A DNA stretch of 64,000 bases from Haloferax marinisediminis (lineage in GTDB: Archaea > Halobacteriota > Halobacteria > Halobacteriales > Haloferacaceae), in NCBI RefSeq assembly GCF_009674585.1, contig NZ_WKJP01000001.1:930001-994000 (forward strand), given 5' to 3'. Below, piece after piece: positions 50,442 to 55,120 of the stretch. How positions within the stretch are numbered: position 1 is the first letter of the stretch; every line of letters starts with the position of its first letter. Under the pieces are notes generated by a model. The model did no database searches. It was not told the origin of the DNA and was given only the letters and a program-made list of their open reading frames with translations. The translations under genes and the position numbers were made by a program.

Positions 50442-51743
50442 TTAGAGACCGACCTCCATCGCGCGTTCGACGACGCCTGCGCCGTAGCGTTCGTTCAGTT
50501 CGTCGTGCTGGTCCGGACGGTTCTCGTAGACGTCTTGGAACAGGCTGATGGGCGTCATCGCGGCCTGATAGGTCGCTTCGTCCCACATCCGGTCGGTGGA
50601 GATGTCGAATTCGGTTCCGCCGATGCGGAGTGTCGCAGACCGCTCCATAGCGATGGCTCCACGTCCGGCCTCCTTGGCAGCCTCGAACTCCTCCATGGAG
50701 TCGACGATGTCGTCCATGCTCGGGACGTACGAAGTCAGTTTGAGGAGTTCTTCGTGCAGTTCGTCCTCGTCGAGCGTTCGGGTGTCGTTACCGACGCGGA
50801 GTTCGTATCCACCATCGGTTTCTTCGAGCGACACACGGTCACCGTCGTACACTTCCACGCCGTCTTCGGAGTCGAGCTCGACCTGTTCACCGTCGACGTC
50901 GAGGAGCCAACTGCCGGTCTTCGGCGGGAGCGGCGACTGGTTCGCTTCGACGACCTGTCCGGGCGTCAGCGACCAGATGCCGAGCATCCCCTTCGCCTGA
51001 TTTTCCGTCATCCGCTCGTGGTAGCCTTCCACGTCGCGGATGTCGTCGTACGGACCGTCGATTGCGATACACCCGTTCGCGCTGGCACCGCGGGAGGTGT
51101 TGTGGCGCAGTTCGGGCCACGAGGGAAGCTCACCGGTCGGCGTCATCGCGCGCATGTCCTTCGTGTAGTCCACTTCTCCGTCGACGAAGAGGAACAACCG
51201 TTCGAGGTTGTTCGTGGCTTTGCCCATCTCGTCGCGGAGTTTCCCCATCGCGAGTTCGGACTCCCCGCTCTCGATGATGACGGACATGGCGAGACTCCCC
51301 TCTTCGAGACCGCACTCGTTCTCGATAATCGTGAAGAACTCGTCGGCCTTCTTCCAGTCGTCGATGTCGCCGACTTCGGGGATGACGAACCCGTCGATGT
51401 GTTCGATTGCGCCGGTGTCCGAACTCGCAATCTCTAGCATGTGCTGGAAGCCCTGATACCGCGTCGCGGGGCTGTCACGGTGCCAGACCATCCGCGGGTG
51501 AATCTCGCCGGGGAACTCCGCACCGTGTTCGGAGACGACTTCGATGATGTTCTCGACACCTTCGTCGCGCATCGAGGGGGCCGTCGCGTCTTCGTTGTCC
51601 GGGACCCACACGTCAGGGGCCTGCATCCCCCGAAGTTGGGCCGCTCGTCGAATCATCTTCGCGGAGTCTTCTTCGCCTTCGATGGCCGTCGGCGAGGTGA
51701 AGAACGTTCGGACGAACTCTCTTTCGTGTCTTCGTTCAGTCAT
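50442..51743 (-). CDS. aceB: Malate synthase, haloarchaeal type
   Basis: A 433-residue malate synthase of the short haloarchaeal isoform, which condenses glyoxylate with acetyl-CoA to malate. It resembles CitE-like lyases: FFTSPTAIEGEEDSAKMIRRA, VWVPDNEDATAPSMRDEG, GFVIPEVGDIDDWKKA, VIIESGESELAMG and FLFVDGEVDYTKDM. Length equals that recalled for the H. volcanii enzyme. It lies 62 nt downstream of aceA on the same strand. Confidence 0.96.
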   Translation of the reverse strand: MTERRHEREFVRTFFTSPTAIEGEEDSAKMIRRAAQLRGMQAPDVWVPDNEDATAPSMRDEGVENIIEVVSEHGAEFPGEIHPRMVWHRDSPATRYQGFQHMLEIASSDTGAIEHIDGFVIPEVGDIDDWKKADEFFTIIENECGLEEGSLAMSVIIESGESELAMGKLRDEMGKATNNLERLFLFVDGEVDYTKDMRAMTPTGELPSWPELRHNTSRGASANGCIAIDGPYDDIRDVEGYHERMTENQAKGMLGIWSLTPGQVVEANQSPLPPKTGSWLLDVDGEQVELDSEDGVEVYDGDRVSLEETDGGYELRVGNDTRTLDEDELHEELLKLTSYVPSMDDIVDSMEEFEAAKEAGRGAIAMERSATLRIGGTEFDISTDRMWDEATYQAAMTPISLFQDVYENRPDQHDELNERYGAGVVERAMEVGL

Positions 51744-51805: not shown

Positions 51806-52840
51806 CTAGTCGTCGTTCGAGGTGATGGGGTCAGCCTGGTCTTCGCTGAACCCAGCGGACTCCTCGATGCGACGGCGGGCCTCGGGGTCGAACTGCGTCT
51901 CGATATCTTGGAAGCGCGAGACGAACGAGAGCTCGTGGTGGCTCTCGGTCGGGTGGCCGAGGTAGCGCTGTTCGAGGTCGAACTGTCCCTCTTCGTCCTG
52001 TTCGGCGAGTTTCTTGAAGTCCTCGTAGACGGCGTGTGCGCCCGAGTGGAGGCCGAACAGCGTGATGAAGATGTACTTGTAGCCGAGGTCACCCAGCTCC
52101 TGGAACGTGAGTGGGTCTTCTTCTTGGGACCACGCGAACGACGACGAGTAGTTGAAGGCGAGCTTCAGGTCGGGATGGGTCTCGTGAATCGTCTCGGCGT
52201 AGTTGACAGCGTCCTCTCGGCTCGGGTTGGGCATCTCCGGCCAGACGAGGTCGACACCTGCGTCGGCGTAGATGCGGCCGCGTTCGAGGTGTTCGTCCCA
52301 GTCGCCGTTGGACGAGCCGTAGGCGTCGGTACGGGCGATGATGACCGTATCCTCCGACTGCTTTGCGTCGACGGCAGCCTCGAAGCGTGACCGGGCTTTC
52401 TCGCGGGAGACGATTTGCTTGCCGGCGATGTGGCCACACCGCTTCGGCGAGGTCTGGTCTTCGATGTGAACCGCGGCGACACCGGCCTTCTCGTACTCGC
52501 GGACGGCACGGCGCACGTTGTGGATACCACCGTATCCCGTGTCACAGTCGGCGATGATTGGGAGGTTCGTCGCCTCGACCATTCGCTTGGCGTTTTCGAC
52601 CATTTCGGTCATCGTCACCATCTCGAGATCCGGGAAGCCGAACTGGCCGAGAACCGTCGAGTAGCCGGACATGTACGCGGCGTCGTGGCCGGTCATCTCG
52701 GCGAGACGGGCGTCCAGTGCGTGGTACATGCCGGGGGCGAACACGAAGTCTTGCGTGTTCAGCATCTCCCGGAGTTCGCGGGCTTTCGGGTTGTCGATAT
52801 CGCGGGTAAAGACGTCGCTGTCGAGTTCGGTCGGGTTCAT
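51806..52840 (-). CDS. aceA: Isocitrate lyase
   Basis: A 344-residue isocitrate lyase that splits isocitrate to glyoxylate and succinate. Signatures: [20 protein letters not shown], the catalytic-cysteine motif [11 protein letters not shown] (Cys near residue 132) and NYSSSFAW. Short haloarchaeal form. Its ATG overlaps the stop of a small upstream ORF by 4 nt; malate synthase follows, giving the complete glyoxylate bypass. Confidence 0.96.
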
Positions 52841-53085
52841 TGGGTGTCGGTAGGAGTCGTGGTCTGCATCGTTCGCTCGATGCGGTTCAGTTGGCTGCGG
52901 AGCGCGGCGAGTTCACGCCGGATGTTCGTCATGTCGTCTTCCTCGCCGGGCTGCTGGATGAAGGGGACGAGCGGCGCGTCCATGTTCTCCTCGTTGTTTG
53001 GGTAGCGCCGCGTTGGCCGGGGAGGGCGAGTAGTCGTCGAGCGGGTCGTCGTGGTAGTGCGAGTCGTGTTGGTTCGGTTTGTCAT
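52837..53085 (-). CDS. Small Thr-rich protein translationally coupled to aceA
   Basis: An 82-residue ORF. Residues 1-27 are mostly Thr and Arg (low complexity), 28-50 contain [20 protein letters not shown], and 52-73 form an amphipathic helix ([20 protein letters not shown]) likely to coil. A later start at Met35 is possible. The stop overlaps the aceA ATG (ATGA, 52837-52840), strongly suggesting real translation and coupling. It would be the first gene of the ace operon. The function is unknown; a regulator or scaffold of the glyoxylate enzymes is speculation. Confidence 0.6.
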
Positions 53086-53402
53086 TGGTTACGTTGGGGG
53101 TGTGGGTGGTCGATAGCGGTCGAAGCGGGCGATGGTCGATTTGTGATGTACTGCGACGGATACTGCGGATACTGCCATTGTGCGTTACCTCACTCGGTTC
53201 GACTCGAGAGCGATATTAAAAGTTAATCATTTATAATGATAATATTCGTTAATGACTTATTTCGGTACACACAGATACTAGGTCCTTATTTGCCATGCCA
53301 AACCATACCAAACACACAGCAGGTCAGCCGTGTCACGTGGTTTCACGGCCTTCCGCGTACGGCACGCTTAATCGCGTCCACGCCCGACGACGCACCAAGT
53401 GA
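53086..53402. promoter_or_regulatory. Divergent promoter region of the ace operon and ABC exporter
   Basis: It contains an AT-rich island (53210-53265) with the minus-strand TATA-like TTTTAATAT (53213-53221) and, 4 nt upstream of it, the palindrome ATCATT-TAT-AATGAT (53226-53240). GTTAAT occurs at 53222 and again near 53249. GGATACTGC is repeated in tandem at 53158-53175. On the plus strand a tiny Cys-rich ORF (53146-53226) is open. The palindrome is well placed to bind a regulator of the ace operon. Confidence 0.6.
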
Positions 53403-54356
53403 ATGGCATCTGCGATTGAGATACGAGACTTGACGAAGTCGTACGGTGACGTGAAGGCACTCGACGGTGTCGACCTCGACGTACCGGAAGGCTCGTTTTT
53501 CGGACTATTGGGCCCCAACGGTGCTGGAAAAACGACGTTTATCAACATCCTCGTCGGCCTCGTCCGCAAATCCGGCGGGACGGCGAACGTCTTCGGCTAC
53601 GACGTCGAAGACGACTACCGCGAGGCCCGCGACCTGATTGGGTTGGCCCCGCAGGAGTTCAACGTCGACAAATTCTTTCCTATCATCGAAATTTTACAGA
53701 CGAAAGCCGGCTATCACGGCGTTCCACGGGACGAAGCGCGAGAACGTGCCGAAGAGGTGCTCAAGCGCGTCGGCATCTACGACAAACGCGACACTCGCTT
53801 CGATTGGCTCTCAGGCGGGATGAAGCGCCGATTCATGCTCGCACGGGCGCTCATCACCGACCCCGACCTCCTCATCCTCGACGAACCGACCGCCGGTGTC
53901 GACGTGCAACTCCGTCACGAACTGTGGGAGACCATCATCGACCTCAACGACAAGGGAACGACGATTCTCCTCACTACCCACTACATCGAGGAAGCAGAAC
54001 GTCTCTGTGACGAGGTGGCGATTCTCGACTCCGGTCGCATCATCGAAGTCGCCAGTCCCGAGGAACTGATGGACCGCGGCACCGACGACATCGTCGTCCA
54101 ACTGCGCGACGCGCCGGCTGCTGTCCCCGACTTCGCGGCGACAGACGACCGAGTCGAATCCGTCGAACTCGACGGCACTCGTCTCGTCATCACTGCCCAA
54201 CAGGGCGGCCTCGTCGCCCCCGACGTGGTGCAAGCCCTCGACGAGGCGGGTCACGAACTCGTCGACCTCGAAATCTCGCGCACGTCGCTCGAAGAGGTGT
54301 TCGTCGAGATGACCAGACAGGGCGAAGGCCGTGCGACGATGGAGGTCGACCAATGA
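53403..54356 (+). CDS. ABC transporter ATP-binding protein (DrrA-like)
   Basis: A 317-residue ATPase with Walker A GPNGAGKTT, Q-loop LAPQEFN, signature LSGGMKRRFMLARAL, Walker B LLILDEPTAGVD and the switch His in TTHYIEEAERLCDEV. The C-terminal about 85 residues are the extra domain of DrrA-type exporters. It overlaps the permease gene by 4 nt. Such pairs export drugs, lipids or polysaccharides; the substrate is unknown. Confidence 0.93.
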   Translation: MASAIEIRDLTKSYGDVKALDGVDLDVPEGSFFGLLGPNGAGKTTFINILVGLVRKSGGTANVFGYDVEDDYREARDLIGLAPQEFNVDKFFPIIEILQTKAGYHGVPRDEARERAEEVLKRVGIYDKRDTRFDWLSGGMKRRFMLARALITDPDLLILDEPTAGVDVQLRHELWETIIDLNDKGTTILLTTHYIEEAERLCDEVAILDSGRIIEVASPEELMDRGTDDIVVQLRDAPAAVPDFAATDDRVESVELDGTRLVITAQQGGLVAPDVVQALDEAGHELVDLEISRTSLEEVFVEMTRQGEGRATMEVDQ

Positions 54357-55120
54357 ACTACAATCTGACGGGGTTTTACGCCCTGCTGCGGCGTGAAGTC
54401 CTCCGCTTCGTCCGTCGTCCTCGGAACACGTTCGCACCGCCGTTCATCACGAACGTGCTGTACTTCTCGGTGTTCGGTGTCATCCTCGGCGAGCGTATCG
54501 ACCAGATTGCGGGCGTCCCCTACATCCTCTTCATCCTCCCGGGACTCATCGTTCTCGGCGCCGTCTCGAACGCCTTCGAGAACGCTTCCTTTACTATCTT
54601 CCACGGGCGCTGGAACCGCTACATCGAAGAGGCGCTCACGTCGCCGCTGTCGTACTCGTCGATGGTCGGCGCGTACATCTTCGCCAGCGCGACGCGTGGG
54701 CTCGTCGTCGGTGTCCTCATCGCTCTCATCGGGTTGTTCTTTACTGCCGTCGGCGTCGCCAGACCGTTCTACCTCGTCGCGTTCATGCTCGTCATCACGC
54801 TGTTGTTCGCTGCCATCGGCGTGGTCGGCGGCCTCTGGGCAGAAGACTGGGACGACCTGACGATGATGAACCAGTTCATCCTCCGACCGCTCGTCTTCTT
54901 CGGCGGTGTCTTCTACTCACTGAACGAGATTCCCGAACTGTTCCGGCAGGCCTCGCTCCTCAACCCGATGATATACATGGTCAACGGCGTCCGCTACGGG
55001 TTCCTCGGCGTCACGGAAGTCGACCCGAACCTCTCGCTCGGTATCCTCTCGGCGCTCACGCTCGTCATCGTCGGCGTCGACGTCGCACTCTTCCGGCGTG
55101 GGTACGGTCTGACCCACTGA
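54353..55120 (+). CDS. ABC-2 type permease
   Basis: A 255-residue six-helix permease of the ABC-2 family (YALLRREVLRFVRRPRNTF, PGLIVLGAVSNAFENASF, GGVFYSLNEIPELFRQASLL, NPMIYMVNGVRYGFLG). Together with the overlapping ATPase gene it forms a complete exporter. Three tandem 8-nt repeats that place stop codons in all frames follow the gene. Confidence 0.93.
   Translation: MNYNLTGFYALLRREVLRFVRRPRNTFAPPFITNVLYFSVFGVILGERIDQIAGVPYILFILPGLIVLGAVSNAFENASFTIFHGRWNRYIEEALTSPLSYSSMVGAYIFASATRGLVVGVLIALIGLFFTAVGVARPFYLVAFMLVITLLFAAIGVVGGLWAEDWDDLTMMNQFILRPLVFFGGVFYSLNEIPELFRQASLLNPMIYMVNGVRYGFLGVTEVDPNLSLGILSALTLVIVGVDVALFRRGYGLTH

Follow-up and report, generated by a model that had tools for sequence, protein, structure and literature searches.

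The window analysed here is a stretch of 64,000 nucleotides from Haloferax marinisediminis, which carries on its minus strand the genes for malate synthase and isocitrate lyase, preceded by a small ORF. The features of the locus are as follows:

50442..51743, minus strand: aceB, malate synthase (851.8 bits with NF041315, the haloarchaeal malate synthase model; cut-off 780)
51806..52840, minus strand: aceA, isocitrate lyase, its start overlapping the stop of the small ORF by 4 nt (PEP mutase/ICL families in Pfam)
52837..53085, minus strand: small ORF of 82 aa, the first gene of the ace operon with good support (15/15 genomes of the genus, dN/dS 0.283)
52858..52944, minus strand: C-terminal heptad helix, residues 48-76 of the ORF product (AlphaFold2; alignment A2)
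52957..53004, minus strand: short linear motif region, residues 28-43, 16 residues (translation; motif upstream of aceA in 136/195 loci; dN/dS 0.203 around the motif)
53005..53085, minus strand: Thr/Arg-rich N-terminus, residues 1-27, the least constrained part (dN/dS 0.452 N-terminal of RRYPNN; pLDDT ~50)
53089..53178, minus strand: upstream frame of 29 codons in the leader, with its end 3 nt 5' of the ATG of the ORF, coding doubtful (start element in 84/113 loci; dN/dS 0.651 in Haloferax)
53215..53247, minus strand: conserved AT-rich ace promoter element of 33 bases (25/33 matches)

The small ORF was read directly from the window as 82 codons encoding 82 aa, and its TGA stop codon and the ATG start codon of aceA share four nucleotides as ATGA, the overlap that the initial annotation had described. 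Divergently from the ace operon, the plus strand at 53403-55120 encodes the ATPase and the permease of an ABC transporter, as judged by reading the proteins. When compared with NCBIfam, the AceA protein of the window is closer to methylisocitrate lyase (192 bits, cut-off 354.4) than to the bacterial isocitrate lyase, with no cut-off passed. According to a study on H. volcanii, the isocitrate lyase gene of this organism is required for growth on acetate (PMC7746861). The gene deleted in that work was aceA and not the small ORF, and complementation was with aceA alone.

The small ORF is a conserved gene in Haloferax

An open frame by itself is little evidence for a gene here, as 17.6% of 20,000 base shuffles of the window ORF remain open frames. 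The window ORF is nevertheless a real gene and more than a chance frame: it is present in all 15 Haloferax genomes searched, with each copy directly 5' of aceA, and the 15 sequences are under purifying selection, with a dN/dS of 0.283 for the ORF and 0.072 for aceA. This constraint is unevenly distributed along the protein, with dN/dS values of 0.203 for the surroundings of the motif, 0.217 for the helix and tail and 0.452 for the Thr/Arg-rich N-terminus.

The AlphaFold2 model of the 82-aa protein, built from five alignment rows, has a mean pLDDT of 66.4 and contains a single confident helix at residues 48-76 (pLDDT 90 and 93 for residues 51-60 and 61-70, respectively), along which I55, L59, L62, L66, I69 and M73 form a heptad run; the N-terminal half is weakly defined. 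With one helix in 82 aa, and with the stand-alone forms described below reaching only 37-50 aa, the protein is small and of largely disordered or simple fold. The initial annotation had presented it as a coiled-coil protein. One confident heptad helix in the C-terminal third agrees with this, but a coiled coil is not the defining feature, since the common part of the family is a short motif and the tails vary by genus. We propose that the ORF product is small and for the most part disordered, and that its key part would be the short linear motif APLVPx[L/I] preceded by acidic residues.

A short motif precedes aceA in several haloarchaeal families

We read 195 aceA loci, of which 106 belong to the family of the window itself (f1; 107 before exclusion of L138, in which aceA is cut at the contig end) and 89 to other families. 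The latter come from 88 of the 99 aceA genomes outside f1, with two loci contributed by G451; the other 11 genomes lie outside the loci read (G203, G206, G213, G249, G255, G258, G260, G276, G304, G437 and G453). The motif was defined as an acidic residue, then at most four residues on [AGLVC]P[LVIATM][VICT]P, in a same-strand ORF near the aceA start. A motif ORF of this kind precedes aceA in 136 of the 195 loci; at the other 59, the upstream pattern found none. Broken down by family, it is present in 101/106 loci of f1, 1/1 of f3, 1/37 of f4, 3/16 of f5, 3/3 of f7, 0/2 of f9, 0/1 of f10, 15/16 of f12, 7/7 of f14 and 5/6 of f17. The pattern missed at least one copy, as locus L290 (genome G220, f12) has a profile match adjoining aceA. 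Patterns in Thr/Arg/Pro-rich leaders invite over-reading, and strand and shuffle controls are therefore important: a narrower form of the motif pattern was found in 134/195 loci on the forward strand and in 1/195 on the reverse strand, and 20 codon shuffles gave a mean of 3.65 and a maximum of 8.

The motif takes the form DAPLVPFI in Haloferax and YTDxENTGxPxVP elsewhere. The f12 and f14 proteins have only 41-53 aa in the aligned rows and read M..YTDxENTGxPxVPxL...E..VWSHR (alignment A1), whereas in the Haloferax form the motif is followed by the heptad helix (alignment A2). The frame is thus conserved upstream of aceA both within the genus (15/15) and beyond it (136/195 loci), and the leading position in the glyoxylate operon that the initial annotation had assigned to it stands, in the sense that a genuine gene precedes aceA and has counterparts at this place in several families of haloarchaea.

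The ORF follows a conserved promoter element

A 33-base AT-rich element was found with at least 20 matches before 167 of 195 haloarchaeal aceA genes, across families, and in none of 195 shuffled regions. In the window, its centre lies 149 nt 5' of the ATG of the ORF, and the best match inside the ORF reaches only 12/33. Among the 113 testable loci, that is ORF-bearing loci with a promoter element scoring at least 19, the element is located 5' of the motif in every case, and for this reason we infer that the ORF lies between the ace promoter and aceA. The initial annotation had conceded that a transcription start of aceA inside the ORF would undo its reading; at the level of sequence, the element before the motif in 113/113 loci and the poor best match within the ORF speak against such a start. 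In loci without the ORF, aceA comes directly after its promoter element. The element may also contain a regulator site next to the TATA box.

The leader contains a further conserved feature, an ATGxxxGTA(TC/CA/CG)-like element. Its distance to the centre of the promoter element is nearly constant, at 46 to 56 nt among the loci listed, and a frame of 26-37 codons begins with it. This start element is present in 84 of the 113 ORF-bearing loci with promoter element. The corresponding 29-codon frame of Haloferax reads M(A/V)VS...RYRPPTPPT with a dN/dS of 0.651 and might be a leader peptide or a DNA or RNA site. A second peptide made from this frame was considered and is doubtful at this dN/dS, even though the start element is conserved.

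Overlap with aceA and probable coupling of translation

The motif ORF ends exactly at an ATGA overlap in 55 of the 136 loci and no more than 30 nt from the aceA start in 97 of them. The remaining 39 motif ORFs, which end far from aceA, belong to 38 loci of Halorubrum (g21) and one locus of g19, and in 33 of these 39 loci another small ORF, which contains VPMAGTGxGPRPD or a close variant, lies between the two-motif ORF and aceA and ends beside aceA, for example in the Halorubrum loci L152 and L161. With both genes on the same strand and an ATGA overlap, the ORF and aceA have the geometry of a termination-reinitiation pair, and on account of this geometry their translation is likely to be coupled. 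Of 14 overlapping gene pairs tested from H. volcanii and E. coli, 13 were strictly coupled (PMC6728339), and subunits of complexes are overrepresented among the short-distance gene pairs of H. volcanii, with 45.2% versus 5.6% (PMC10666635). The coupled overlapping pairs of H. volcanii share the ATGA overlap and the genus with the ace pair (PMC6728339, PMC10666635). The ace pair itself is not discussed there, insofar as the word isocitrate does not occur in the main text of PMC6728339, nor do isocitrate lyase or aceA in that of PMC10666635. If the ORF is expressed, the small protein would hence be made in step with isocitrate lyase by means of the stop/start overlap.

Homologues away from aceA accompany aceA genomes

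A search with profile A1, built from the VWSH form, covered 392 genomes of the order, both those that have aceA and those that lack it, and gave matches to genes distant from aceA in f4 and f5. We inspected 20 of these unlinked places and found genes of 37-50 aa with varied neighbours, among which no shared neighbour was found. The YTD..NTG.P pattern or its F/A variants is present in 19 of the 20 stand-alone genes, for example MERYTDTENTGAPTVPLLYDDESAETLEEVVWSHRLANE, and one (L372) is degenerate; the stand-alone homologues retain the motif together with a VWSH-like tail. A by-eye comparison of the promoters of aceA and the stand-alone genes for a common operator was not convincing, and none of 17 pattern matches was confirmed as a viral relative of the family profile A3.

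Profile A3, which comprises A1 plus the stand-alone sequences over 42 positions, gave no match between 5.1e-10 and 1e-3. It matches 53 of the 392 genomes, and all 53 are among the 160 genomes with aceA (aceA match at 1e-80). The presence of aceA in 160 of 392 genomes fits the division of haloarchaea between the glyoxylate and the methylaspartate cycle (PMC5592240). With regard to linkage, which was compared in 49 of the 53 genomes (all but G206, G249, G255 and G304), 24 genomes have a copy beside aceA, 22 have unlinked copies only (18 from f4 and 4 from f5) and three (G189, G210 and G272) combine unlinked copies with a linked ORF of the heptad type. Chance values of 5.5e-24 (all 53 genomes) and 1.1e-9 (the 22 with unlinked copies only) ignore ancestry and therefore make the association look stronger than it is, as the genomes compared share ancestry and are not independent. 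In a sample of 35 genomes of f4, nine of them new, aceA is present in 9 of 10 A3 genomes (one-sided Fisher P 0.0086), and the exception, G476, which has A3 without aceA, is 57% complete. The reverse does not hold, as A3 is absent from 10 of the 19 aceA genomes of this sample and from 20 of the 38 f4 aceA genomes of the order set. In genus g80, G326 and G385 have both aceA and A3, and G356 (98% complete) has neither. A3 matches no Haloferax genome of the order set, so that its counts describe a single branch of the family. Across the family, matches to the Haloferax form below E 1e-3 adjoin aceA in the genomes in which the places were compared. With the motif ORF at 136 of 195 aceA loci and aceA in 53 of 53 A3 genomes, the family is genetically linked to the enzyme.

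One might argue that we have joined too much, that the Haloferax form and the VWSH and stand-alone forms are unrelated ORFs of low complexity, and that the co-occurrence with aceA reflects ancestry only. The leaders are indeed low-complexity sequences rich in Thr, Arg and Pro, their tails differ, A3 finds no Haloferax genome in the order set, and 18 of the 22 genomes with only unlinked copies stem from the single family f4. We nevertheless regard this as very improbable, in view of the strand and shuffle controls, the identical place of the forms before aceA, the parallel between the Haloferax motif residues and YTDxENTGAPxVP, the fit of aceA-linked and stand-alone VWSH forms to one 42-position profile with the match gap from 5.1e-10 to 1e-3, and the joint presence of aceA and the profile in two g80 genomes next to the absence of both in a 98% complete one.

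The stand-alone homologues also bear on a second alternative, according to which the ORF is a leader that, on being translated, supplies aceA with ribosomes through termination-reinitiation or acts as a sensor of some kind, while the peptide has no role of its own. The ATGA overlap in 55 of 136 loci is what would be expected in this case, as is the strict coupling of 13 of the 14 overlapping pairs mentioned above (PMC6728339), but the sequence is constrained at the amino-acid level, the motif is common to several families, genomes without the ORF have aceA straight after the promoter element, and homologues that stand alone cannot lead aceA. We consider this alternative quite unlikely. A leader peptide as the complete account was thus set back by the homologues away from aceA, which are also at odds with a leader or attenuator that acts in cis only, an argument that applies to the family rather than to the Haloferax copy in particular. 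Two roles had been offered in the initial annotation, regulation of aceA translation and binding of the enzyme. Given the unlinked homologues that keep the motif and the 22 genomes without a linked copy, binding to the enzyme or to another protein fits better as the main job than the regulation of translation.

The likely target of the small protein

As the motif is kept away from the operon, yet the genomes that keep it retain aceA, we propose that the small protein affects the glyoxylate cycle in trans, where it would most likely dock its motif onto isocitrate lyase. The enzyme is suggested as the target by the overlap of the ORF with aceA and by the variable linkage to aceB. A tie to malate synthase was pursued and set back, because linkage of aceB is independent of the ORF: aceB lies downstream in 15/15 Haloferax loci, an aceB match in the 1000-1500 nt read downstream was found in 0/10 loci of the genus Halobaculum and 0/11 loci of g17, and in the Natronomonas loci L158, L159 and L179 aceB is present and the ORF absent. 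Isocitrate lyase is thus the nearer suspect. In some ORF-bearing loci (L150, L152, L160, L161 and L171), a gene resembling malate synthase or malyl-CoA lyase is located directly downstream of aceA and is only 26-28% identical to aceB.

A natural read-through in Halorubrum was modelled with AlphaFold2 as the small ORF, its stop read as Gly, the intervening stretch and AceA. In this monomer model AceA was modelled, but both motifs stayed at a pLDDT of ~30 and were not docked, with only 2 of 26 alignment rows covering the motif part, so that the model does not support docking. Four misaligned small-ORF rows had been omitted from the folded alignment. No AceA residues clearly track the presence of the partner, in a comparison that is confounded by ancestry. 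A fusion of the motif to the N-terminus of AceA where the ORF is missing was sought and not seen; many of these AceA proteins begin with short unrelated extensions. Many AceA proteins of f4 (L162, L158, L179 and others) carry such a short N-terminal extension, for example MAHDNDG..., in place of the M-NP-ELD start of the ORF-linked loci.

The undocked motif in the read-through model and the lack of partner-specific AceA residues are consistent with a third alternative, in which the protein acts in trans at the branch point of the glyoxylate and TCA cycles on a target other than isocitrate lyase, such as isocitrate dehydrogenase, malate synthase, a transcription regulator or a protease adaptor. 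The unlinked copies, which still accompany aceA genomes, likewise associate the small protein with the pathway as a whole and not with a single enzyme or other protein. We consider this alternative somewhat unlikely, as the linked form always stands before aceA among the loci read, often overlapping it or close to it (97/136 within 30 nt), and as aceB linkage varies independently.

C-terminal modules and a second motif

When each genus is represented by its commonest form, a C-terminal module is carried by 18 of 19 genera with one motif, whereas six of the seven genera with two motifs lack it, and g15 has both the motif pair and a tail (Fisher P 2.0e-4, with tail patterns set after inspection and genera that are not independent). 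The module is a heptad helix in, for example, Haloferax (g1), Halogeometricum (g9) and Haloprofundus (g18), a DPFExALMEDSE-like tail in Halobaculum (g6), g20 and g23, and a VWSH-like tail in f12, f14 and g8. The combination of the motif with a helix, a tail or a second motif copy suggests a two-handed binder, and we infer that two-handedness is retained by one means or another. Through its C-terminal helix, the alternative tail or the second motif, the protein could connect enzyme molecules with one another or bind a further partner.

Comparison with known systems

Taken together, we propose that the ORF product is a partner, as yet undescribed and characterised by its short motif, of isocitrate lyase or of the glyoxylate cycle, which would act in trans and be two-handed, and we assign a probability of about 0.5 to this chain as a whole. 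Isocitrate lyase sets whether the carbon of acetate is kept or burnt. A companion protein that stands beside the enzyme in several families, and at other loci in some genomes in which this link was lost, could offer a handle on the control of isocitrate lyase in a genetically tractable model. One might go further and speculate that such a two-handed disordered protein is a widespread haloarchaeal switch between the TCA and glyoxylate cycles, which, made in step with isocitrate lyase, gathers this enzyme into an assembly or sequesters isocitrate dehydrogenase and in this way sets the flow of acetate carbon, but we regard this extension as distinctly doubtful.

The protein family is recognisable by its short motif and absent from the curated libraries scanned. 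The window ORF had no Pfam match above cut-off (best matches DUF6779 with 17.1 bits, cut-off 28.1, and End3 with 16.4 bits, cut-off 25.2, both over the helix), no NCBIfam match at E 1 and a best PHROGs match of only 0.077, and A3 had no match among PDB sequences at E 1. No description of such a protein with isocitrate lyase was found in the open-licence literature searched, and we know of no protein-level control of isocitrate lyase in archaea.

Small proteins that control an enzyme of central metabolism by binding to it are described in cyanobacteria, where CP12, the glutamine synthetase inactivating factors IF7 and IF17 and PirC/CfrA have 65-149 aa and are thus of a similarly small size as the ORF product (PMC7760959). 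CP12 is intrinsically disordered according to a title cited there and bridges two enzymes (PMC7760959). CP12, IF7, IF17 and PirC act on other enzymes in other organisms, and binding has been demonstrated for them (PMC7760959), whereas here it is proposed; sequence relation was compared via Pfam and NCBIfam only, where the small ORF has no match above cut-off. In archaea, the 23-aa micro-protein sP26 of Methanosarcina mazei is reported to interact with the glutamine synthetase GlnA1, with small effects and without bound sP26 being visible to the authors by cryo-EM (PMC11957540). By analogy, the ORF product resembles in kind the small enzyme-binding regulators CP12, IF7, PirC and sP26, which does not imply membership in those families. 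To our knowledge, sP26 has no APLVP motif.

The genetic arrangement has a parallel in the aceBAK operon of E. coli, which in addition to the glyoxylate enzymes encodes AceK, a protein in control of the branch point. In contrast to the ORF product, which has 82 aa and no kinase domain, AceK is large and acts on isocitrate dehydrogenase as a kinase/phosphatase. If the haloarchaeal protein were indeed a switch of the kind outlined above, it would fill the place that AceK holds in bacteria by other means.
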